From IMG/VR virus record IMGVR_UViG_3300021960_000047, positions 20,053 to 84,052 of that record: a stretch of 64,000 nucleotides of DNA; one strand, given 5' to 3'. Shown here piece after piece: positions 1,045 to 38,341 of the stretch. The notes under the pieces were generated by a model that was not told the DNA's origin, did not search any database, and was given only the letters and a program-made list of their open reading frames with translations. Numbering within the stretch: position 1 is the first letter of the stretch; each line of letters opens with the position of its first letter. Source of the stretch: a virus. The translations under genes and the position numbers were made by a program.

Positions 1045-1276
1045 TTTGCTTTCCTACCAATCCTTTTATAAGATCTTTGAGTTCTGAGATCTCGTCTTTA
1101 AGAGAAGCGAATTCGCTTTCTAGTTTCAATTTATTTTCTTTTTGTTCGATTGAAATCGCCTTGCGCCGTCGCGCAAGACGGATCTCCTCTTCATTGGTAT
1201 TTATAACAGTTCCAGTAGCAAGGTTCTTGTATAAACTACTAGAACCTTCTACCTTTTTAAAATGCGCTTCAGACAT
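1034..1276 (-). CDS. Small coiled-coil virion-associated protein (80 aa)
   Basis: The first half, SEAHFKKVEGSSSLYKNLAT, is polar. The second half (residues about 30-72) is a Lys/Glu heptad-rich helix (EQKENKLKLESEFASLKDE) that should form a coiled coil. The start overlaps the stop of the 1896-aa gene in a TAATG, so translation is coupled. From memory, similar small proteins accompany the large baseplate/fibre protein in marine T4-like phages, but the role is not known. It may be a trimerising adaptor. Confidence 0.6.
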   Translation of the reverse strand: MSEAHFKKVEGSSSLYKNLATGTVINTNEEEIRLARRRKAISIEQKENKLKLESEFASLKDEISELKDLIKGLVGKQNGI

Positions 1277-4200
1277 TATATCAGAGCAATAGCGCGAATG
1301 TTACCTAACACTGGTGCTTGACAAGTATTTGTCGATTTAAGCACAACCTTCAGTTGGAAAGAGGTGAAATCGGGAAGAGTACCTGTTTCCCCTCCGATAA
1401 GATATCGATATTCCGTAAAGGTAATATTTTCGTCATTATTCACCCAAGGTGAAGGCGCAGGATCGTTTTGAGCAGTTGCTAAAATCCAAGAATTCTCGTA
1501 CATATTCTCGTCCGCTTCAGCACTTGTCCTATAGTATAGATCAAAACTTGATTGTGGAGGTCTATACATGTCCAAAAGAACTTTAATTCCGTTTGCTGCT
1601 TGTCCTAACTGCACGATCTTAGTTATGTGCTTGGAAGGAGTTGTTCCCAGCGTTGGGTGAGACTCACGGATATAACCTTCAGGACGATTCTCAGCTACTC
1701 CTGCTGCGTCTGAATCGATCGGTTGATTGTCAATAACGTTATTCATAACGACCATACCGATACTTTGCGTATCAATTATAGGCGAAACGTCAGAAACATA
1801 CCCAGAACTCACACCTCCTCGGAAAAGGTCTCCACCAAAAGTCGACTTTTGATTAGTGGTCAACGTTGCGCTAACCACAATAGAAGGTGCTGAAAGAACA
1901 GAATCTTCTTGATTTTGATTGGCAACATATTTTGGTGTTTTAAAGAAATATGGCAAAGTATTTGGCATAGTTGTATTGGTATTGTCTATATTAAACCGTA
2001 CATCAACACCTTGTGTTTGCGAGATTTTAGAATGAGAAGTTCCGCTAACAAAACTTGCGTTGTACACAATACCAGTGTTTTCAAATTCGTGATCTTGGAA
2101 ATTCAACAATGCGCGGTCAATGAAAAATCCTCTATTACTTGCAACAGAATCGCTTCCAAAAGTTCCCACTGAGGTGAAGGCACTATCGAGAGAAATATAA
2201 TATCCTGCTATATCTGGATTTATGACTTTGTTCGCGGAATCCATTATACTAGAACCAAACACACCGTTATACTTGGCCGCAGAATCCAGTCCTGTTATTG
2301 CTGCTAGGTCTCCCCAGCCAAGTCCATGCCCAAGGTGGTCTACTCGCAATCTGTTAAGATTATCTGAGTCTACACGCAAACTCGAAGCATAGTTATGGAT
2401 ATGCCTTTCGAGCGGTTCATTATAAAAGTTTGCTCCACCTGTTTCTTTAAACTTCGCGGTGTAAATCCGATATGGCATGTCTTGATTTTGTTTTGGCGTC
2501 CAAGTAGAACCATTCTGAGAAAGGAATAATGAACCTTTCGATGGTTGTTTTGAAACCCTTTTAGAAGTAGAACCCAACACAAGATCATAGGTTGTCGCAA
2601 CATATGCTTCGTACTTATCGCACTCTGCTAAAAGAACAAAGGCATATTCTTCTCCTGAGCGCAAAAATACTGGTTCTTCAAACTCAAAGGTTACTGGATG
2701 AGCAAGAACAGAAGCCAAAGTTTCAGTCTGTCCTGATATAGCAGTCCTAACAGCAGCAGCAGTTTTATACACTCTGTGTTGTTCGCTGATCACGTCTCTA
2801 TCAGGAACACCACTACTTACTGTCCTTAGTTGCAATTGTAGTGGAACCTGAGTATCTGATACGCTAGGTGCGCTTCGAATAAACGTGTCAATTTTGGTTA
2901 CAAAAACTCCAGGAACACCAGCACCACCGTCGACGGTGAATGTTTGTGCAAGGGGATCCCTTGGTCTCCAATCTTCGCTAACTCCAATAAGTTCTTCACT
3001 CTCAGTAACATACTCATCTTGAACAGTAACCACCCGAGTATGCGCAAAGGTTCTTTCTCTTAATGAAATTCTTCCCCATGCGCTATAAGAAGTTGATGCA
3101 CGGGACAACGCCCCATCAGGGTTATACGTTGATATGTCTAAAAGTTTAACCTGATGCGTTCCACAACGGAACTTCCAACCCATTTCATTCAACGCATTAA
3201 CAGATTTTACCGAACCATATTGTTTTGCATACTTGCGAGAATTTGCAATCCACTGATTCCATTCTTGCTGAGTGTTGAATTGCGTAGAAAGGGGAATAGG
3301 AATCACAGAATTATTAGGAATCCAGAGTTCAAAGAACAATTCTCCGTCGTTATCAGATATCAAAGTTCTTTCAGCATCGCTACCGAATGGGTGACTTTTC
3401 AAACTTACGTTTGTTTGCGCAACTCCTCTTCTGTGATCGCCAGCAGAAATAGAAGAGTTATACTCAGTTTCTGTTCTACTTCGAACCCACTGATTCATTT
3501 GTATTCCATTCATGTAACACCAGTAACGAGTGTTCGGGCGCATTCCTTGTGCCTTAGCAAAAATTCTTCTCTGCCTCATGAAAGGTACTGAAAGAATAGC
3601 AACAGTTCTGTCACCAAGATCGCGAGTGAACGTTTGATCGCTGACAACCTTAGTTCTGACGCTCTGCGTGACTCGATATGTCTCTGTTCTAGTTCCACCT
3701 TGTAAGTCTACCAAATCAAACCAGTTGTCTTCAGTTTGTTGGTTATCACGACCAAGGGCAGTATTGCTAGAACCAAGGAGCGCACCAAAAAGTCCAGCAG
3801 GTCCAGTAGGTTCTGTTCTAGGGCGAGGAACCCAGCGAATAATAACAGAAGTTCTGGAATAAGTAAAAGTTCTTGGTACTAAAGGTTCACCAATTCGACG
3901 GATTATAGTACCGCCATTAATATGCTTGTCTGGCAACCTTCGAGTATCGAACCAAATATCTCTTGATGGGTTCAAACGAAGAATACCTTCTCCCATGAAG
4001 ACGTTAAATGGGTTTACATTATAATATCCAAATTCTTCATAGTTTCCAGTAGATTTCCAAGAAATCATCTCATTTTTCATACTCGTGTCTAAAACGTCTA
4101 TGTAGTCTAACATAAGGTTTTCACCTTTCTTGATTATGTTAGATTTTGTTACACCACGAGAAGAATATAGATTGGCAGAGTCATAATTAAACCCAATATT

Positions 4201-6966
4201 CTCTGCTTCTAACTTACAATGCATAGTGAAGTTACCCTCATCTAAAGATGAGGTAGCAAAAGACGCATCGTCTATAAAGCTGTTGTTAATAATTGAGGCA
4301 GTGAACGCATAACCTTTAGTGAAATCGTCTACAAAGAAACCAGTCTTGGAGCGGATATTACCGTCAGCATCAAGTTCTACGAGGTTAGATGCTTCCTGTT
4401 CAAGAGCAGTCAAAGAAACAGTTTCTTCAAGACGAGCAACTCTTCTCTCAATATCGTGTATGTCGTTCATTTTAAACCCACGATATTGTCGACGGTTCCA
4501 GGACAGGTCAGAAGAACTCTTAGTGTTTCCTCCAAGAGCAACATCAAACAGAACCATTTCTCCCTTTTTCTCTCCTGGAGGTACTGGTTGTAAAGATTCT
4601 TCTCCTTGGTTTACTGCAACCACTGGGCGAAAATCGCCGTCATATTTCAAAACCACATGGTCTAGTCGGTGATTATAAAATTGAACACCGTAGTTTATTT
4701 GATCGTCGTTTCTTGGCAACCTAAAACGATCTCCAGAAGTCATTGCACTAGAATCAGGATCTAGTTTTGATCGGAAGTCTAGGTAGTTGTGTAATGGATA
4801 TATTCGACCGCTTTTATTAGAAACATAATTCGGAATATCGCCGTAGTCAAACCAAGTAGAATCTTCTATGTCATAAGAATTAACAGAGAAAAAGTCTCCG
4901 CCCGATCCCCAAGTAAAGTATGCGACCTTGGCTCTTATATCTGTAACGGCAGCAGCAACCCCGTCTGGGATTAATTTTACAGGTCCGTAATAATTGTCTC
5001 TTTGCCCTGGATCAAAAGCGACTTGGTGCAGAACATTTGAACCAGCACTATCACTATCGTATGCTGCAATCAAAGAAATACCATCATACAATTCATTAGC
5101 AGTAATAGAAAGAGGATCAATAGTAAAGTCACTATCTGGCGAAGTACGAGAAAAATCGAACCAATTTTCTGAATATGTTTTAGACTTTGGTGATGGGTCA
5201 TCAACGCTCACATAATAGAAAATTTCATATCGAGAAGTTGTCCCACTTAGAGTACTAATAGTAGCTGTGTTTCCAACTACTGATATTTTACCGTCAATAT
5301 TCTCTACGGTATTGTTATCCTTTCTAATCGCGATCCATTGCGCCTCATCTGTAAAAGATTCGTCAGCAGCAATTGTGATAGTCACTACACCACCACTTGC
5401 CGTTTTACTCGTCTGTTCTTGAACAGTGAAATTATCCACACTGACTTGTTTGACCCTTCCTCCAGGGACTTCAAAAAGACTGGTATTCGTTTCTGGAGAA
5501 GTTACATAAGTCTGATTATCTTCCCTCAATGGTTTTACTGCTTTTGCAAAATCGGTAGAATCTCCGATAGCAAATACGTCTCTAAAATTATTCGCGCCAG
5601 ACATTTGTATGTCGAAAAGGTGCATTCTGTATCGAGCACTGTCTATAGCAGAACCTCTGTCGACAAGAGATTTCACTCTGGTATAACCAATAACAGCCGA
5701 ATCCGCATCAAATAGAGCAATTTTCTTTTGATTTGTTATTGCGTTCTCAAAATCACTATCTAAGTTGCCCAGAGAACTATCGCCTGAACTTAGGTTGTCA
5801 AAGGCAACGTAGTTTTTGTAAGAAACATTAATGTTTTGATCTGAGTCGGTAACAAAAGAAGTTGGTTTCGGTACAACTAAACTTTTTCCGACTTTATGCT
5901 CTAGGCGGAATCCATCTAAAAATGCTAGTGGACGCACCCCTAACTGTTCAGCAGGAATGTCATAAATCATTTGAGCACTGTCATCGCCTTCTCTAAATTG
6001 TATCTCAAAGTCGTTGACAATAAAGTTTCCATGAGTATCATGGTGGCGATGTGCTAGTCGTTTCTCAAATTGATTAAAATTGTCAGTTCCTTCTTTTATT
6101 TGTACGATTTTAGAAGCACGAACAGTTGCAAAGGAAACAAAATCTTCTGCTACTGCAACCGCGTCTCTCGTAGACAAAGTCATCTGGATTCTATATCGAT
6201 CGGCACCAGGAGCAGACAGATTAGGTCGAGTTCCTTGATTGTCGTACAAAGCATCGTCATCAGCGGTAGTTACCACATCTTGCGTTACTTCAAACCCTAC
6301 TTCTGCATCAACATAAGAACTGTATTTTGATATTGCTAGAGTTTGTTTAGGAACGTATACAAAGTGTCCTTGAACGTAAAATTCTGCTCTTTGTACAGAA
6401 AAGAGGACACCCTTTCCAGTAGAGTTTATCGCCGAACCGCTATGTTTTGTTCGAACAGTAAGACTATTACTACCGTTTACTAACGTTTCTGCATCATCAA
6501 ACGTTAAAGATTCGGTTTGAACGTCTGTGGAAACACTTTGTTGATTAGCAGAGACATACCTTCCATACAAGATATGAATCGTACTCTCACCCGCGTTATC
6601 GTCTTTCGCTTCTTGAATATAACTTATTTGAAACTTTAGTCCGCTCGTTCCTGTTTTTGATTCGCCTGTAAACTCTAACCCAATATAGTCGGCGGCATCA
6701 AGGGCAAAAGATGCGTCTGTGACGATAACATAATCAACGATGTCAGTTCCAGCACCAGATGATTTCGGAGATATAGCAGCACCATCCATGAAGATGTTGT
6801 TTGCCATTCTGGTGATTTGAGTTTGTAAAATAGTCTGTAACTGATTGAGTTCCCTCGCTTGGAGAGCACGTCCAGAATTGAATAGAACCTTATGGTATCC
6901 AGCACTATCTTTAAAATCGTCCCTATATGTATCAGAGAACGTTGTTGATGTAAACTGATTAGGCAT
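1276..6966 (-). CDS. Large baseplate-distal virion protein, DUF4815-type (1896 aa)
   Basis: This is the longest gene in the window. The N-terminus (residues 1-80, with the motif GYHKVLFNSGRALQARELNQ) is the hallmark of the DUF4815 structural protein of marine T4-like phages. The remainder is Ser/Asp/Thr-rich beta structure with internal stretches such as RVARLEETVSLTALEQEASN (about 840-860) that look helical. Its position after gp8 corresponds to T4 gp9/gp10, the outer wedge and fibre socket. It may therefore anchor or form fibres; this is inference. Start is ATG at 6966, 11 bases after the gp8 stop. Confidence 0.75.
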   Translation of the reverse strand: MPNQFTSTTFSDTYRDDFKDSAGYHKVLFNSGRALQARELNQLQTILQTQITRMANNIFMDGAAISPKSSGAGTDIVDYVIVTDASFALDAADYIGLEFTGESKTGTSGLKFQISYIQEAKDDNAGESTIHILYGRYVSANQQSVSTDVQTESLTFDDAETLVNGSNSLTVRTKHSGSAINSTGKGVLFSVQRAEFYVQGHFVYVPKQTLAISKYSSYVDAEVGFEVTQDVVTTADDDALYDNQGTRPNLSAPGADRYRIQMTLSTRDAVAVAEDFVSFATVRASKIVQIKEGTDNFNQFEKRLAHRHHDTHGNFIVNDFEIQFREGDDSAQMIYDIPAEQLGVRPLAFLDGFRLEHKVGKSLVVPKPTSFVTDSDQNINVSYKNYVAFDNLSSGDSSLGNLDSDFENAITNQKKIALFDADSAVIGYTRVKSLVDRGSAIDSARYRMHLFDIQMSGANNFRDVFAIGDSTDFAKAVKPLREDNQTYVTSPETNTSLFEVPGGRVKQVSVDNFTVQEQTSKTASGGVVTITIAADESFTDEAQWIAIRKDNNTVENIDGKISVVGNTATISTLSGTTSRYEIFYYVSVDDPSPKSKTYSENWFDFSRTSPDSDFTIDPLSITANELYDGISLIAAYDSDSAGSNVLHQVAFDPGQRDNYYGPVKLIPDGVAAAVTDIRAKVAYFTWGSGGDFFSVNSYDIEDSTWFDYGDIPNYVSNKSGRIYPLHNYLDFRSKLDPDSSAMTSGDRFRLPRNDDQINYGVQFYNHRLDHVVLKYDGDFRPVVAVNQGEESLQPVPPGEKKGEMVLFDVALGGNTKSSSDLSWNRRQYRGFKMNDIHDIERRVARLEETVSLTALEQEASNLVELDADGNIRSKTGFFVDDFTKGYAFTASIINNSFIDDASFATSSLDEGNFTMHCKLEAENIGFNYDSANLYSSRGVTKSNIIKKGENLMLDYIDVLDTSMKNEMISWKSTGNYEEFGYYNVNPFNVFMGEGILRLNPSRDIWFDTRRLPDKHINGGTIIRRIGEPLVPRTFTYSRTSVIIRWVPRPRTEPTGPAGLFGALLGSSNTALGRDNQQTEDNWFDLVDLQGGTRTETYRVTQSVRTKVVSDQTFTRDLGDRTVAILSVPFMRQRRIFAKAQGMRPNTRYWCYMNGIQMNQWVRSRTETEYNSSISAGDHRRGVAQTNVSLKSHPFGSDAERTLISDNDGELFFELWIPNNSVIPIPLSTQFNTQQEWNQWIANSRKYAKQYGSVKSVNALNEMGWKFRCGTHQVKLLDISTYNPDGALSRASTSYSAWGRISLRERTFAHTRVVTVQDEYVTESEELIGVSEDWRPRDPLAQTFTVDGGAGVPGVFVTKIDTFIRSAPSVSDTQVPLQLQLRTVSSGVPDRDVISEQHRVYKTAAAVRTAISGQTETLASVLAHPVTFEFEEPVFLRSGEEYAFVLLAECDKYEAYVATTYDLVLGSTSKRVSKQPSKGSLFLSQNGSTWTPKQNQDMPYRIYTAKFKETGGANFYNEPLERHIHNYASSLRVDSDNLNRLRVDHLGHGLGWGDLAAITGLDSAAKYNGVFGSSIMDSANKVINPDIAGYYISLDSAFTSVGTFGSDSVASNRGFFIDRALLNFQDHEFENTGIVYNASFVSGTSHSKISQTQGVDVRFNIDNTNTTMPNTLPYFFKTPKYVANQNQEDSVLSAPSIVVSATLTTNQKSTFGGDLFRGGVSSGYVSDVSPIIDTQSIGMVVMNNVIDNQPIDSDAAGVAENRPEGYIRESHPTLGTTPSKHITKIVQLGQAANGIKVLLDMYRPPQSSFDLYYRTSAEADENMYENSWILATAQNDPAPSPWVNNDENITFTEYRYLIGGETGTLPDFTSFQLKVVLKSTNTCQAPVLGNIRAIALI

Positions 6967-21927: not shown

Positions 21928-22434
21928 ATGGCAAACAATTATAAAGGAAAATATAAAGTCAAGAACATTTCCAAATACAAAGGAAATACACAAGAGGTGG
22001 TCTATAGGAGTTCTTGGGAACTTGCTGTAATGAAGCATCTAGACAGTAACCCAGAAGTCTCTAAATGGAATAGCGAAGACTTTGTGGTGCGGTATTACTA
22101 TGACGTGGATAAAAAATACCACAACTATCACGTGGATTTTTGGATAAAATACAAAAACGGGAAGGTGTTATTGGTTGAAGTAAAACCAAAGAAACAGACT
22201 TTGCCACCTGCAACAAAGAATCCAAGGTCTAAAAAATCGTTGAACGAAGCATTTGCTTGGATAAAGAACTGCAACAAATGGGAAGCAGCAGGAAAAATTG
22301 CCAAAGACAATGGATACTCTTTTCAGGTTTGGACTGAAGAAGAACTCAAAAAGATGGGTATTCTAAAGAAGCAACCAGGAAAACTAAAGAAGTTAAAACC
22401 GCTAGCACCTTATAAAAAGAAAAAGAAACCTTAG
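21928..22434 (+). CDS. 4: Head completion nuclease-like protein gp4 (168 aa)
   Basis: This is a homologue of T4 gp4, which finishes DNA-filled heads before tail joining. The core is VYRSSWELAVMKHLDSNPEV, then RYYYDVDKKYHNYHVDFWIK and KVLLVEVKPKKQTLPP. The Glu/Asp and Glu-x-Lys (VEVKPK) arrangement is like the PD-(D/E)XK fold, so a nuclease active site is plausible. The C-terminus is a Lys/Pro-rich basic tail. It is one of only two plus-strand genes in the window and converges on the tape measure gene, overlapping its end by 4 bases. Confidence 0.85.
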   Translation: MANNYKGKYKVKNISKYKGNTQEVVYRSSWELAVMKHLDSNPEVSKWNSEDFVVRYYYDVDKKYHNYHVDFWIKYKNGKVLLVEVKPKKQTLPPATKNPRSKKSLNEAFAWIKNCNKWEAAGKIAKDNGYSFQVWTEEELKKMGILKKQPGKLKKLKPLAPYKKKKKP

Positions 22435-24389
22435 ATTGCTCTTCCTCTAAATGCTGCTCTACGGTCTGTTCTGTCACTTTTATCAGTAGCAGATGGCATT
22501 GGTCCAGCGTTAATGGTTTGATTGCTGACGGTTGTGTTAGTGTTCGGTGCATTAATAGCGACTGGAGCACTTGGTTTAGATTCTTCTGCCTTTGCAGCAT
22601 CCAGTTTTGACTGTTCAGAAGACATAGTTTCAGAAAGAGAAACACGGTCTTGTCCAGGTTCTACTACTGGTGCAACTGAAACACTACCCATAGCAGCATT
22701 TGCTTCTACGCGCTTCGCCTTAATTGCGTTTGATGCTGCTGCGCCTTCATCGGTCATTAAGTAATCAAACGCTTCCATATCATCCATGCCTTCTAGTTTG
22801 GCATCTAGATCTGCTTGCATTTTATCTGCTTCTGCTCTCAATGCTTTGCTTTTTTCGGTATCAACTTTCTTGTCAGCAAAGGTGGTCGTTGAACCACCGC
22901 CAGATTCCGATACTTTGGTAGTTACTTTTGTTGTTACATTACCTGCGGAATCACCTTTCAACTTCATAGGTTTTTCATCATAGAAATCATCGCTTCCTTC
23001 TATTGCAGCATCAAACCCAATGTCGTCCTCTAGCGCAGCATCGAATTTATCTGGACCTTTACTCTCTCTAAATTTATCCAGTTCAGCGCGTGCTGTTTTC
23101 AATTCCGCACGAATTTCTGCTTGTCTTTTATCCAAATCAGCAAACGGATAATCAGGGTCTCTTGAATCAGCAGGTACTCTCATACCCTTTGCCAACATTT
23201 CCTGTATAATAGTTTCTTTTTGTGCACTTATATCACGTTGTTCTGCTTGTAACGCACCTACTTTTTCGCTAAGTTCTTGTTCTTTATAGAAATCATCTGC
23301 TATTTTTTTGACTTTTACAGGTTTAGGTTCTTCTGTTGTCGTCGGTTTTACTTTTCCTGACGCAAAATCTTTCTTAAATTGTTCTTGCTGTTGCTTGACG
23401 ACATCAGCAGAAGACGTTTTAACTGGAGAAGGCACGTCACCAATAGTTCTTCCACGCTTACCAGTCTCGGGATCAACTTCAGGTACGCCACTTCCTTTAA
23501 GGTCGTCAACTGCTGCTTGTCCTCTTTCACTAAGTTTGGCACCTTCTTTTCCGGAAGGAATCTCCATTCCGCGTTTAGTAGAGGTTTCCTCTTCTTCTTC
23601 ACTTCCAAGTCCAAAAAACCCCAGAAACCCTTCCTTAACTGCGTTGATCTTGTCTGAGATATAATTTTTTACACTAATGAGAAAATCTCTAATACTGTCT
23701 GTCAATTCGTCAACAAAATCAGTAACAGAAAAATCTGAAAGTGCGTTTTCAATAGTCTCTAGACCCAACACTCCAGCAATTTTCTCCACCACCCAGAGCA
23801 TAGCGTCTATCGGAAGGGTTATGAGTTTAAGAACTCCGTCAATAAAACCCATCATACCTGCTATAATTTTATCGAACAGGGAACCTTCCTGTGCTTTGAA
23901 ATCTTCGACAAAATTCATGACCCCCGAGACAAGAGCTGTAATCGCACCAGCAACAGCGATCATGGGCAAGGTGATTGCACCAAACAAAGTGGTAATAACT
24001 GCTGTGACTTTACCGACGGTCTTTAGAACGTTTCCAATAGAATCCATAACGTTCTTTTTCATTTCGCCAACAGGGTCCGATTTGAACCCTTCCATGAAGG
24101 CACCTTTTAGTGTAAACGGTTCTCTCTCGCTATCCTGTTGTTGCCCTACTTCCTCTTCCCTTTTTTTCTGTTTTGCTTGGGTCTTTTCAAAATCAAGTAA
24201 TGCGTCAAACCCCTGCATAACAGCAGCAGGAACAGTTTGAACAAAACTGTTCATAACAGAAACAAGTTCTTGTATACCAGAGTTAAGAGTAGAAATATTA
24301 TCGTTAATTTCAAAATTTGCTTCAAGGTTGAGATCAACATTCTGGTTGAGTTCTTGTAACTCTGTTACTACCGCTTCTAACGTTGCCAT
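22431..24389 (-). CDS. 29: Tail tape measure protein (652 aa)
   Basis: The tape measure sets tail length and is threaded through the tube. It has a helical N-terminus (ELQELNQNVDLNLEANFEIN), a hydrophobic Gly/Ala/Val segment at about 125-165 (VTAVITTLFGAITLPMIAVA and following) and a second one at about 175-205. Long charged helices follow, and the tail ends NAPNTNTTVSNQTINAGPMP. Its place, directly after the gp26/gp51-like chaperone genes and before gp48, is the tape-measure slot (T4 gp29, 590 aa). Sequence identity to T4 gp29 cannot be judged by eye. Confidence 0.75.
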   Translation of the reverse strand: MATLEAVVTELQELNQNVDLNLEANFEINDNISTLNSGIQELVSVMNSFVQTVPAAVMQGFDALLDFEKTQAKQKKREEEVGQQQDSEREPFTLKGAFMEGFKSDPVGEMKKNVMDSIGNVLKTVGKVTAVITTLFGAITLPMIAVAGAITALVSGVMNFVEDFKAQEGSLFDKIIAGMMGFIDGVLKLITLPIDAMLWVVEKIAGVLGLETIENALSDFSVTDFVDELTDSIRDFLISVKNYISDKINAVKEGFLGFFGLGSEEEEETSTKRGMEIPSGKEGAKLSERGQAAVDDLKGSGVPEVDPETGKRGRTIGDVPSPVKTSSADVVKQQQEQFKKDFASGKVKPTTTEEPKPVKVKKIADDFYKEQELSEKVGALQAEQRDISAQKETIIQEMLAKGMRVPADSRDPDYPFADLDKRQAEIRAELKTARAELDKFRESKGPDKFDAALEDDIGFDAAIEGSDDFYDEKPMKLKGDSAGNVTTKVTTKVSESGGGSTTTFADKKVDTEKSKALRAEADKMQADLDAKLEGMDDMEAFDYLMTDEGAAASNAIKAKRVEANAAMGSVSVAPVVEPGQDRVSLSETMSSEQSKLDAAKAEESKPSAPVAINAPNTNTTVSNQTINAGPMPSATDKSDRTDRRAAFRGRAI

Positions 24390-24577
24390 TATCGCCCCAT
24401 CGCCTTTCTTTGCTCGATTTTTTCGTTCTCTTCCCTAATATGCTCTATAAGAAGAGCAACATAAATCGCCCGTTCCCATGGGAGCATGTTTTCTAGTTCT
24501 GTTAACGAGTAATTGTGGTGCTGCATCAAGGCAAAATTAGTTTTATAATGATTGACCAAATTGTCATGAGACAGCAC
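24389..24577 (-). CDS. 51: gp51-like tail/hub assembly segment (62 aa), possibly only made as a frameshift fusion
   Basis: This is a short helical protein with the conserved-looking core YKTNFALMQHHNYSLTELEN, then MLPWERAIYVALLIEHIREE. It occupies the gene 51 slot after gene 26. The only start is a GTG (24577), two bases after the gp26 stop, with no Shine-Dalgarno sequence nearby; the next in-frame ATG is codon 18. The frame is exactly the -1 frame of gp26, and no stop separates them. It may therefore be expressed mainly as the C-terminal part of a gp26-gp51 fusion. It ends at the tape measure start (1-base overlap). Confidence 0.7.
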   Translation of the reverse strand: MLSHDNLVNHYKTNFALMQHHNYSLTELENMLPWERAIYVALLIEHIREENEKIEQRKAMGR

Positions 24578-24579
24578 TA

Positions 24580-25299
24580 CTAAAAAAAATCGGATAACCC
24601 CTTTAGTTGTAATTCGTTTTCAGTACCGCATTTTTTACAATTAAAAACCGCATCATGTTTCAACGCAGGCATACCTTCCAAAAAAGAAGTCAATTGCTTC
24701 AATTGCGTTGCAGTCATAGACTGTATAAATTCCATCAACTCTTCTTCGCTTTGATCTCTTGCGTCAATTCTCTCGTTTGGTGTAAGAACTGCTACTATAG
24801 ATTTACAAATCATTTTTAAAGCAGAACCCATGTCTTTTTCTGCGTTTTCTACATCCCCGTTGAGTAAAGTAGAATATGTTGGATATCTCATTTCAACAGA
24901 AATACCATCAGTAATTTTTATTATATTCTTACTTTTTGGGACTTCTACGTTCAACGTATCGAGATCAATATGGTATTCGTTTGCCTCTTTACACTCTTGA
25001 TTTTTGCAACGAATCATAATAGTTGAGGTTTCCCCAACCGACTTTGCTCTCAACTGAGTGAACATGTATTCAATGTCAAACGTTGCCAAATCAGAAACAT
25101 TAATATTAGCACTCGGGTCTAGGCAAGAAGAGATAGTATCGCTCATTGCCTGTAAACACATTGAAGTGTCTTTTGACTCAAATGCTTGAAGAAGAACCTT
25201 TTCTTCTTTTACCAAATATGGTCTATACTTTACTCTTTCTCCAGTTGAAGGAATAGTCATATTAAAGTTTAGCGTTTCATTGACACGTGGTAATGCCAT
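24580..25299 (-). CDS. 26: gp26-like baseplate hub / tail assembly protein with zinc-ribbon cysteines (239 aa)
   Basis: This matches the T4 baseplate gp26 family: FNMTIPSTGERVKYRPYLVK, then EEKVLLQAFESKD at the N-terminus. Residues about 95-110 contain Cys pairs (IRCKNQECKEANEYHIDLDT), and the C-terminus has FNCKKCGTENELQLKGLSDF. Together these form a likely zinc ribbon. Length is close to T4 gp26 (208 aa). It ends on a run of eight U residues and a UAG that could cause -1 frameshifting into the next gene. It sits before the tape measure, where tail-assembly chaperones are usually encoded. Confidence 0.8.
   Translation of the reverse strand: MALPRVNETLNFNMTIPSTGERVKYRPYLVKEEKVLLQAFESKDTSMCLQAMSDTISSCLDPSANINVSDLATFDIEYMFTQLRAKSVGETSTIMIRCKNQECKEANEYHIDLDTLNVEVPKSKNIIKITDGISVEMRYPTYSTLLNGDVENAEKDMGSALKMICKSIVAVLTPNERIDARDQSEEELMEFIQSMTATQLKQLTSFLEGMPALKHDAVFNCKKCGTENELQLKGLSDFF
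24583..24589 (-). other. Candidate -1 ribosomal frameshift site (U UUU UUU) at the gp26/gp51 junction
   Basis: In the minus-strand mRNA the gp26 frame ends GAU UUU UUU UAG. The heptamer U-UUU-UUU is an ideal slippery sequence, and the zero-frame stop follows it immediately. Slipping back one base reads UUU UUU UUA GUA GUG CUG and runs into the gp51-like frame, giving a fusion of about 303 residues. This resembles the G/GT tail-assembly chaperone pairs of other phages. No downstream pseudoknot was looked for. A homopolymer length error is the main alternative. Confidence 0.6.
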
Positions 25300-25314: not shown

Positions 25315-25884
25315 TCATTTAATCAAATAATTTGAAAATACAAAAGAAACAGTAAGTTCTAGTGCTGCTCCTTGTGCTTGGTTATTTAGTTCGACTTCTG
25401 TTATGGTAGTTGGATATGCTTTTACTAGTTCAACTTCATAAACCTTTTCTCCGTCAGGGACGTTTAAATTCCCTTTGTCTAACTGAATTACAGTTACGCT
25501 TTTCGCATAGTCTGCGTGAAATCCAGCAGAATATGGGGGTGAAGGAGAAACTATACATTCCGACCATTCTTGAAAATATTTTCTGGCACTATAGTCGTTT
25601 GTGAGATAAAATGTCAAGGAGACGTCAGAAGAAGAATACCCATTGACAACCTTTATCGGTTCCATTCCAATTTGCCTATCAAGGAGAGAGAAATTTTTGC
25701 CTGGTATTCTTGCAGCAGTACAAAGAAGGTTCATTTCTCTTGGGGGAATGGGGTCGGTGGCGATTCCCCCTCCAGGTTTAGGTGTTCTGGAAAGAGATGG
25801 CAATATAACAGAGAACCTATTCTGTGAGGCGATTCCTCTTTGGTCGTTGATCAACGAGCGGAGAGTGTCGGTTTTAAATGTCAT
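25315..25884 (-). CDS. Tail tube-fold protein, gp54- or gp19-like (189 aa)
   Basis: The pattern RFSVILPSL, then EMNLLCTAARIPGKNFSLLD and VSLTFYLTNDYSARKYFQEW, is that of the gp19/tube family. The C-terminus ALELTVSFVFSNYLIK is a tube-type strand. T4 gp54, the tube initiator, and gp19, the tube subunit, share this fold. Position in the baseplate block rather than next to sheath and portal favours a gp54-like initiator. ATG at 25884 overlaps the stop of the 199-aa gene (ATGA). Confidence 0.65.
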   Translation of the reverse strand: MTFKTDTLRSLINDQRGIASQNRFSVILPSLSRTPKPGGGIATDPIPPREMNLLCTAARIPGKNFSLLDRQIGMEPIKVVNGYSSSDVSLTFYLTNDYSARKYFQEWSECIVSPSPPYSAGFHADYAKSVTVIQLDKGNLNVPDGEKVYEVELVKAYPTTITEVELNNQAQGAALELTVSFVFSNYLIK

Positions 25885-26749: not shown

Positions 26750-27169
26750 TTATCCGATTGGAATAACTTTTGGACGCTTCTCTTCTGGGATTTCTACTTT
26801 CAGGTCAATGACCAGTAATCCATCCACGAAGTCTGCTCCGTCAACAACGACGTGTTCTGAGAGTCTAAAGGTGCGCGTGAATTTCTTTGCAGAAATACCA
26901 CGATGGAGATACTCACGATCACTTTCTCCTTCCCCAGTTTTACCTCCAGAGATTACCAAAATGCCGTCCTTGACTTCAACAGTCAGTTCGTCCTTTGAGT
27001 AACCTGCAAGAGCAAGTTCTACTGAGAAATTCTTTTCATCTTTTTTCACAACGTTGTGCGGAGGATAGAGTTTGTTATCTGCCATTTCTGACAGACGCTC
27101 GATCTCCGACCATACGTGGTCAAATCCGATGAAATGTGAACGTGGAAAAGAAAATGCTTTAGATACCAT
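26750..27169 (-). CDS. hsp20: Small heat shock protein Hsp20 (139 aa)
   Basis: This is an alpha-crystallin/IbpA-type chaperone. It has an N-terminal FDHVWSEIERLSEMADN helix, the core KNFSVELALAGYSKDELTVE, then VKDGILVISGGKTGEG and REYLHRGISAKKFTRTFRLS. The usual VDGADFVDGLLVIDLKVEIP strand is followed by the C-terminal I-x-I anchor (VIPIG). Complete domain and typical length. GGAG precedes the ATG, and a late promoter lies at 27235-27242. Phage Hsp20 may help capsid or replication protein folding; the role is not proven. Confidence 0.93.
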   Translation of the reverse strand: MVSKAFSFPRSHFIGFDHVWSEIERLSEMADNKLYPPHNVVKKDEKNFSVELALAGYSKDELTVEVKDGILVISGGKTGEGESDREYLHRGISAKKFTRTFRLSEHVVVDGADFVDGLLVIDLKVEIPEEKRPKVIPIG

Positions 27170-28295: not shown

Positions 28296-28868
28296 TCAAC
28301 GAGAAGTCAATACTTTTCCTTCCCGCTGTGCCCAACTAATTAGGACAACGCGACGACCTTGGAGCAACGGAGTTGCTTCATGGAAGTAATATGCGGGAAA
28401 GATGATGGTCTCAAAAGGTTCAAGATCTACAACATAATCTTTCCCCAAAGGAGTCCATATTTTTAACTTGCCACCGACGAGGTCGTCAGATTTTTCAATC
28501 ATCGTGACGGAGGTAAACAAACGATTATGTGCGCTGCCAATCTCGTCTATGTCGTCTGTGTGACACAAAAATTGTTGCCCAACTCCCTCATAACGTATAA
28601 ACTCAAATTGCGCGAACCAAAGATCTTCAGGAAAACTAGGAGAAAGATCTAGTAAAAGTTCTCTAAGCGCAAGAGAAATGTCGGGGAATTCTTTGTAAGT
28701 AAACGGTATGTTTTCACATTTTCTAGTTTCTGAAATAGAAGAAGATTCTAAATTCCTGTCATAAACTTGTGCGGGAGAAAGTTGCGGTTCAAGTTCTTTG
28801 AACTTTGTCAGGAGGGTCTCTTTTTGTTCTTCGTCAAAGATGAACTCTCTGATAAAATAATTATTCAA
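28296..28868 (-). CDS. 2OG-Fe(II) oxygenase, prolyl-4-hydroxylase type (190 aa)
   Basis: The double-stranded beta-helix core is in the C-terminal half. The Fe ligands are His-x-Asp in FLCHTDDID and the distal His in YYFHEATPL. The 2OG-binding Arg is in GRRVVLISWA, and the conserved DLVGGKLKIW strand lies between. Length fits phage P4H-like proteins. The substrate is unknown (protein, nucleic acid or small molecule). It overlaps gp33 by 8 bases at the end of an early operon. It is one of four putative Fe-dependent oxygenases in the window. Confidence 0.85.
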   Translation of the reverse strand: MNNYFIREFIFDEEQKETLLTKFKELEPQLSPAQVYDRNLESSSISETRKCENIPFTYKEFPDISLALRELLLDLSPSFPEDLWFAQFEFIRYEGVGQQFLCHTDDIDEIGSAHNRLFTSVTMIEKSDDLVGGKLKIWTPLGKDYVVDLEPFETIIFPAYYFHEATPLLQGRRVVLISWAQREGKVLTSR

Positions 28869-36787: not shown

Positions 36788-38341
36788 TTATGATGTAAAA
36801 ACCTTTACCCCATATTTTCGTTCAAACTGAGCAGCGTGTTCAACAGTATTAACCATCGGCATGCGTCGAATATTCAAAGAAGTGTTTAACAACATAGGCA
36901 CACCAGTTCTTTCATAATAGCATTCAATTATTTTCCGAAAAACCGATTTCGAATCTTTTGGCACTAATTGTACGCGACCAGTACCATCGACATGAGTAAC
37001 AGAAGAATACTGGTGTTTTGCCTTAGCAGCATATTGCATCCATCGATTCATTGGTCCTTCGAAATAATCTGCTGCATGTTCTTCTAAAATAGCAGGAGCG
37101 AAAGGTCGATATTTCTGCCTACGTTTTACCATGTTAACTGTATCTTTAACATCGAATCTAACATCTGCAATAAGTGATCGGTTTCCATATGCACGATAAC
37201 TAAACTCTGCTGGACCGTTTGCGACTCCGCAATATCGCTCTTTGAGGAGATGATCAACAACCATTTCTGGGTCTAAGTCTCCTTCGATACAGTGACCAAG
37301 ATAAGGGTGTTCCCAATTAATTCTATCCTTGCCAGTATCTCTCATATAAGAAAAAGCAGCTGCACCGAGACTAGCACCTCCATCTCCAGGATTCAAATCT
37401 ACCCACATATCGTCAAATAGTTTGCTCACCTCATTATTTGTGACAATATTCTGTGCAACTCCGCCGGAATAGCAAAGTTTGCTTCCGTACTTTCTTGCCT
37501 TTTTCATAAACTCTAAAATAACGAGGGTTGTACATGCTTGAAGAGATGCAGCTGCATCCTCTACAGATTTACATTCTTTCATAAGCATCTGTACGATTTT
37601 TCGCAAGTACATTAACTTTAAGTCATAGAAATGTTTCCAGTTCACGTAACTTCCTTCTTCCCTTTTTTGTATTGCTTCTTCAATCAACCATTCGGGAATA
37701 GAACTAAACATCTCATAAGTTTTTTCAGTATGAGTAGGTTCGCCATAACTCGACAATCCCATGATCACATATTCATCTTCGTTTGCGGTCAAACCGAGTC
37801 CGCAACCTTCTGTAAAGGCAGCATAAAGATATCCGATAGATTTAGGGAATGTTATCTCTTCAATAATATTAAAATTATGATCAAGAATTGCACCAGAACG
37901 ATGCTCCCCAATACCATCAATTGTTACAATAACGCAATCTTCTTTATCGAAAGATTTTGGTCTTGTGGCAAAAGCAGCATATGCGTGCGAAATATGGTGC
38001 CCAGTAGGTTTTGCGTTTATTTTTTGAGTATACATCGAAGGATGTATGTTCTGTATAGGGCAATCCAATTTGAAAATATCAGGAAACTTTTTCCGAGTTA
38101 ATGCAACTTCACCTCCACGAAGTTCTTCTCTCGCCTCCCAATCGTCATTCATTGTAACGATTAGGTTTTCTCCTTTATTCGGGTGATACAATAAGTCCCA
38201 CAAACCAGAGGGGATTCTAGAATCGTGCTTCACTTGAGTGAATCTTTCTGTCTGACTCGCAAAGACAATATTGCCTTGGTCATCAATCAACGTCATGCCA
38301 GCATCGTGGAGTTGTGCTCCACTAATACCCAAATATTTCAT
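36788..38341 (-). CDS. O-carbamoyltransferase, NodU/TobZ family (517 aa)
   Basis: The N-terminal Kae1-like domain shows MKYLGISGAQLHDAGMTLID, the Fe-site motif GHHISHAYAAF (His115/116 and His119), and TIDGIGEHRSGAILDHN. The SGGVAQNIVTNNEVS and NPGDGGASLGAAAF blocks follow. The C-terminal Carbam_trans_C domain has RSLIADVRFDVKDTVNMVKR, then RQKYRPFAPAILEEH. All are hallmarks of enzymes that put a carbamoyl group from carbamoyl phosphate on sugars or antibiotics. Length is slightly below NodU (about 560-600). It is adjacent to sulfo- and methyltransferases. Confidence 0.9.
   Translation of the reverse strand: MKYLGISGAQLHDAGMTLIDDQGNIVFASQTERFTQVKHDSRIPSGLWDLLYHPNKGENLIVTMNDDWEAREELRGGEVALTRKKFPDIFKLDCPIQNIHPSMYTQKINAKPTGHHISHAYAAFATRPKSFDKEDCVIVTIDGIGEHRSGAILDHNFNIIEEITFPKSIGYLYAAFTEGCGLGLTANEDEYVIMGLSSYGEPTHTEKTYEMFSSIPEWLIEEAIQKREEGSYVNWKHFYDLKLMYLRKIVQMLMKECKSVEDAAASLQACTTLVILEFMKKARKYGSKLCYSGGVAQNIVTNNEVSKLFDDMWVDLNPGDGGASLGAAAFSYMRDTGKDRINWEHPYLGHCIEGDLDPEMVVDHLLKERYCGVANGPAEFSYRAYGNRSLIADVRFDVKDTVNMVKRRQKYRPFAPAILEEHAADYFEGPMNRWMQYAAKAKHQYSSVTHVDGTGRVQLVPKDSKSVFRKIIECYYERTGVPMLLNTSLNIRRMPMVNTVEHAAQFERKYGVKVFTS

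Follow-up and report, generated by a model that had tools for sequence, protein, structure and literature searches.

The locus raises the question of whether its gp26-like and gp51-like reading frames are two neighbouring genes, or a single gene that is read in two ways. We studied it in a stretch of 64,000 nucleotides (the window), which is part of an 84,052-base virus record from a marine-type T4-like phage. The evidence favors the second reading: with a probability of about 0.93, the window carries a real, conserved −1 frameshift through which one gene would yield two tail assembly chaperone isoforms.

The gp26 gene and its 3′ end

The features at the junction are as follows.

24580..25299, minus strand: gp26 homologue, predicted short tail assembly chaperone isoform, 239 aa (PF12322, phrog_150)
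24583..24589, minus strand: slippery heptamer U UUU UUU in the zero frame (from the sequence; U UUU UUN in 108/111 homologues)
24389..24583, minus strand: −1 frame extension of 64 codons and a stop, the predicted C-terminal domain of the long isoform (the "gp51-like" ORF; phrog_634, phrog_150)

The 3′ end of gp26 is GGT-rich and closes with GAT TTT TTT TAG (GAU UUU UUU UAG in the RNA), giving the protein tail ...GLSDFF. Its run of eight T's occupies 24582-24589 on the minus strand, and the UAG stop (24582-24580) lies directly 3′ of the heptamer. Past the slip, the −1 frame reads TTA GTA GTG CTG ..., that is, LVVLSHDNLV..., and continues to a TAA at 24391-24389; this stop and the ATG that opens the following gene overlap (TAATG at 24389). 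The fusion would therefore read ...SDFF-LVVLSHDNLV..., with 64 aa added to 239 aa for a total of 303 aa. This is the arrangement of a programmed −1 frameshift (−1 PRF): an X XXY YYZ heptamer in the zero frame, here U UUU UUU, followed by an open −1 frame, here of 64 codons. The gp26 coordinates, the frame, the U7 heptamer and the product of about 303 aa in the original prediction were re-derived exactly (239 + 64 aa).

The short product matches the Pfam profile PF12322 (T4_baseplate) with 187.9 bits against a cut-off of 24.5 (E = 2.7e-55, residues 11-239), and it matches positions 5-232 of the 282 positions of PHROG 150 ("baseplate hub"). The end of the same PHROG (positions 231-278) is matched by the −1 extension, which also matches PHROG 634, "baseplate hub assembly catalyst" (E = 9.9e-29). 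As deduced from the two overlapping frames, the short and long isoforms share their N-terminal domain.

Conservation among relatives

Searching with tblastn returned 930 phage records at E ≤ 1e-5 (1156 at 0.01), none of them above 60% identity, and no DNA-level relatives were found in the phage collection. We sampled 18 phage regions and 94 IMG/VR loci and checked every frame at the gp26 3′ terminus, which was readable in 111 homologues. All 111 have an open −1 frame past the gp26 stop; it runs for 52 codons or more (median 62), against a median of 5 codons for the +1 frame. When the 165-nt tail is shuffled, it remains open in 1.3% of trials. Judged by these counts, the −1 relation of the two frames is not due to chance, and no relative has the two frames in any other relation.

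The slippery site is nearly as constant as the frame. T TTT TTN stands in register at the last two conserved codons in 108 of the 111 homologues (U7 in 60, U6C in 35, U6A in 10 and U6G in 3), often without a long U run. The context T|TTT|TTN occurs in all 87 non-redundant sequences. Elsewhere in these 87 gp26 ORFs, the six-U motif is found in the zero frame at 8 of 20,288 other codon positions. The position of the stop varies among the relatives, lying 0, 3, 6 or 24 nt past the heptamer.

The three exceptions are the Ackermannviridae Vi01 and KP6 and the vibriophage D503, which keep the −1 junction with a site of only UUUUC. The extension is retained in Salmonella phage Vi01 (L030:3179-3245), KP6 (L033) and Vibrio phage D503 (L026), and in Vi01 and KP6 it is not annotated. 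The sites in the Ackermannviridae and D503-like vibriophages read GAA ATT TTC ATT TAA and CTT TTC AAG TAA, with no U UUU UUN heptamer.

The extension itself bears the mark of a translated sequence from its beginning. In pairwise comparisons of 79 sequences, the difference rates at the three codon positions are 0.33/0.18/0.53 over the first seven codons past the slip and 0.38/0.23/0.56 over codons 8-30. Coding constraint thus sets in at the first post-slip codon, ahead of any start codon in most relatives. Conservation covers site, frame and product alike (108/111 sites, 111/111 frames and the codon-position bias), which supports the programmed −1 frameshift mechanism that had been predicted for this locus.

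Possible stimulatory elements

Two further putative elements flank the heptamer.

24598..24604, minus strand: AAAGGGG, an internal SD-like stretch and putative frameshift stimulator (anti-SD duplex energy)
24518..24582, minus strand: possible downstream hairpin region (local folding signal across relatives)

The end of AAAGGGG is separated from the heptamer by 8 nt. Across the 87 relatives, the anti-SD duplex energy falls to a mean of about −6 kcal/mol in windows −16 to −8 before the heptamer; the observed value is −6.15, compared with −4.92 (sd 0.15) under synonymous codon replacement. An SD-like tetramer is present upstream in 71/87 relatives, where 50 are expected. The purine-rich, anti-SD-complementary stretch about 8-16 nt upstream therefore exceeds the synonymous expectation. 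E. coli dnaX is an example in which internal SD sites, similarly spaced, promote −1 shifting.

Folding on the 3′ side of the site exceeds that of dinucleotide shuffles, with a mean z of −1.0 to −1.2 at 0 to +15 nt and about zero elsewhere. RNAalifold found no consensus downstream RNA structure in 74 sequences. Partial covariation is seen for a hairpin at columns 28-36/43-51, whose best register differs between lineages, and we therefore limit the claim to a local folding signal.

Alternative explanations

The original prediction treated the gp51-like ORF as a gene of its own, and the two proteins could in principle be translated separately, with a small gp51 initiated at the GTG at 24577, possibly by termination-reinitiation. 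This GTG lies three bases past the gp26 stop, and a short gp51 coding sequence is annotated here in public records; if started there, the second ORF in the −1 frame would have 62 aa (24577-24389). It is the sole early start candidate of the extension and has no properly spaced SD; the original prediction had likewise noted that it lacks a ribosome site. The SD-like element is located about 8 nt ahead of the U run and not at the proper distance from a start. Among the 87 non-redundant relatives, 65 have no ATG, GTG or TTG within the first eight extension codons, although these codons are conserved, and most have no start codon ahead of the conserved LSHD stretch. An SD-like tetramer ahead of a start within twelve codons was found in only five cases. 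Since the early codons are constrained while start codons and SD elements are mostly absent, separate initiation of gp51 is unlikely. The slippery codons, moreover, are fixed at the junction, and T4 gp51 carries the equivalent domain within a single reading frame. We consider separate translation highly improbable. The conserved −1 frame and the coding constraint from the first post-slip codon indicate that there is no separate gp51 gene here: by its conservation and its homology, the "gp51" ORF encodes the long chaperone isoform's C-terminal domain. Public records do not reflect this. The join is marked in none of the 15 annotated records of the frameshift type, and gp51 is either truncated at its start or missing.

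Two other explanations concern the homopolymer itself. RNA polymerase slippage on the T8 run could yield a −1 product, and eight T's are found both in the window and in 43 of the 87 relatives. However, the run is seven T's long in 6/87 and only six in 38/87, where it is broken by C, A or G and yet retains the register T TTT TTN. It is the codon register that is conserved, not the run length, and a homopolymer route needs neither this register nor the upstream SD-like element. The short runs in 38 of the 87 relatives favor the ribosome over the polymerase; slippage is probably ribosomal, and the polymerase route has very little probability left. A sequencing or assembly error that splits an ordinary gene of 300 aa would agree with T4 gp51, a single in-frame gene of comparable length. 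Against such an error, a second IMG/VR contig, L005, has exactly the same 1100 bp around the site, a relative at 86% protein identity retains U8, others carry UUUUUUC/A/G with the frame relation kept, and relatives at 86%, 64% and lower identity retain that relation with different bases. The same junction is present in finished phage genomes of many genera, including non-homopolymer variants. Because relatives replace the run and still keep the frame relation, homopolymer error, which the original prediction had flagged for checking, is excluded for practical purposes. A −1 frameshift by the ribosome thus remains our preferred reading. All the refutation tests in the original prediction that sequence data can address had outcomes in its favor.

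Neighboring genes and proposed mechanism

The genes on either side of gp26 are listed below.

25315..25884, minus strand: tail tube protein gene, directly upstream of gp26 (phrog_45 tail tube, E = 9e-29)
22431..24389, minus strand: next gene, 652 aa, at the tape measure position (position; weak phrog_4200 match, E = 9e-4)

In phiM12 and HTVC008M, the genes standing where the 652-aa gene stands are annotated as tape measure, and other members have matches to tape measure families. The position of the 652-aa gene and its weak phrog_4200 match suggest that it is tape-measure-like. The order is then tail tube, gp26/51, tape-measure-like gene, as in G/GT-type chaperone pairs. Like the heptamer, the open and conserved −1 frame, the SD-like element and the single gene copy, this order is read from the sequence.

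Records of C48C1 (L001:4891-6369), Syn19 (L002:4959-8708) and P-HM2 (L004:4881-6713) call the gene found at the tape measure position a peptidase or endolysin; such a gene may encode a tape measure protein that also has an enzymatic domain. The window also encodes, all on the minus strand, a small heat shock protein adjoining the tail genes (26750-27169; HSP20/alpha-crystallin, E = 1.4e-16), a 2OG-Fe(II) oxygenase family protein (28296-28868; PF13640, E = 1.1e-7), a Nol-like carbamoyltransferase, an auxiliary gene (36788-38341; phrog_1601, E = 7.7e-75), and a protein of 1896 aa in an unknown-function PHROG (1276-6966; phrog_358, E = 1.4e-245).

We propose that most ribosomes would terminate at the UAG and release the short form, gp26, of 239 aa. 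A minority would slip back by one base on U UUU UUU and read 64 further codons, giving the long form, gp26-51, of 303 aa. Pairing of the anti-SD with AAAGGGG just upstream probably aids the slip. If the system works like lambda gpG/gpGT and P2 E/E+E′, the domain common to both forms would coat the tape measure protein made from the following gene, and the C-terminal domain, present only in the scarce long form, would bring in subunits of the tail tube or hub. We infer the occurrence of slippage, its efficiency and the chaperone role from the arrangement of the locus. A lambda-like division of labor is the best reading for gp26 and gp26-51.

The AlphaFold model of the short form has a mean pLDDT of 82. 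A PDB search with it gave no match below E = 0.001; the solved chaperone HK97 gp13 (2ob9) appeared with a non-significant E of 2.0 (probability 0.28, 71 columns at 5.3 Å). A viral structure library returned family members only, and a search by sequence found no solved structure of the family. The GenBank record of phage Konradin names gp26, gp51 and gp28 as tape measure protein assembly chaperones.

Relation to T4 gp26 and gp51

PMC3004832 places T4 gp26 and gp51 among the hub assembly chaperones and gives gp51 as needed for assembly and absent from the virion. Their genes are separate, as had been stated, and lie on opposite strands (26 on minus, 51 on plus). Both proteins share PF12322. T4 gp26 corresponds by homology to the short isoform, and its C-terminus lies at the matching position (GLKEFFELL followed by the stop). 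Unlike the window, its end, gag ttc ttt gag, has no slippery site, and T4 would therefore not use a frameshift. T4 gp51 (249 aa) is an in-frame homologue of the entire 303-aa fusion, matched by PF12322 over 1-201 and by phrog_150 over 3-248.

The number of gene copies also differs between the two types. Searches of whole records found one PF12322 gene in 16/16 phage records with the frameshift and two in 6/6 T4-type phages without it (T4, KP15, JSE, Konradin, VP8 and F48). The window contig, an 84-kb fragment, has one. In Klebsiella phage KP15 (L115:2501-3795), genes 51 and 26 stand in tandem on one strand with a 4-base overlap, whereas those of T4 are divergent; the KP15 arrangement may reflect an original tandem duplication.

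In a tree of 37 proteins, the T4-type gp26 sequences form one group, with weak support (86/58), and the gp51 sequences another (100/99); the frameshift proteins lie beyond a branch supported by 97/95. The frameshift members include other Straboviridae (Ah1, Aer65 and VS2), and a single duplication in the T4-type line is for this reason the simplest reading of the tree, which is unrooted and has long branches. A wider account, which we hold tentatively and at somewhat less than even odds, is that a complete bacterial-type recoding cassette underlies the frameshift of this family across marine and other T4-like phages; its parts would be a conserved internal SD-like element about 8-16 nt upstream, U UUU UUN and lineage-specific downstream hairpins. 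The T4-type phages would have lost the cassette after a single gene duplication, with the short form passing to gene 26 and the long form to gene 51, and the Ackermannviridae and some vibriophages would keep the −1 junction with only UUUUC.

If these readings are correct, the annotation of one gene is corrected across a very large group of phages. T4 genes 26 and 51, long filed as a hub subunit and an "assembly catalyst", then have a simple reading: they encode one chaperone in its short and its long form. A rule may be offered, by which phages with the frameshift would have one such gene and phages lacking it would have two.

Comparison with known systems

The link of T4 gp26/gp51 to the G/GT and E/E′ systems had been presented as new in the original prediction; it has probably been published already. 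Short and long tail assembly chaperones of T4-like phages are the subject of Vladimirov, Gautam and Davidson (2022, Virology 566:9-15), which PMC10885494 and PMC12846349 cite for both T4-like routes; judging from these citations, this kind of system was published for T4-like phages in 2022. According to PMC12846349, the T4-like phages of that study have polyT slippery sites in the short-form gene, as is the case here. In the accessible literature we did not find the conserved internal SD-like element, the strict one- or two-copy split or the UUUUC variant stated, some of which Vladimirov et al. 2022 may contain. The locus is absent from the main text of the PRFect and GeneTack papers.

Family searches gave no sequence match to the lambda G/GT or P2 E/E+E′ chaperones. 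The P2 slip site is U UUU UUG, and that of lambda is GGGAAAG. Lambda gpG and gpGT, the latter arising by the −1 shift, both bind the tape measure protein; recruitment of the tail tube protein is the task of the T domain (PMC5009743). The resemblance to the window lies in the arrangement: in lambda (PMC5009743) and in P2, short and −1 extended isoforms are encoded between the tail tube and tape measure genes, as they would be here. A similar case has been described in the Vandenendeviridae and Andersonviridae, where a conserved −1 frameshift occurs at a T-rich site ahead of the tape measure gene and the downstream ORF has been misannotated as a gene. These are other phage families, and their invariant motif is GTTTTT (PMC12846349).
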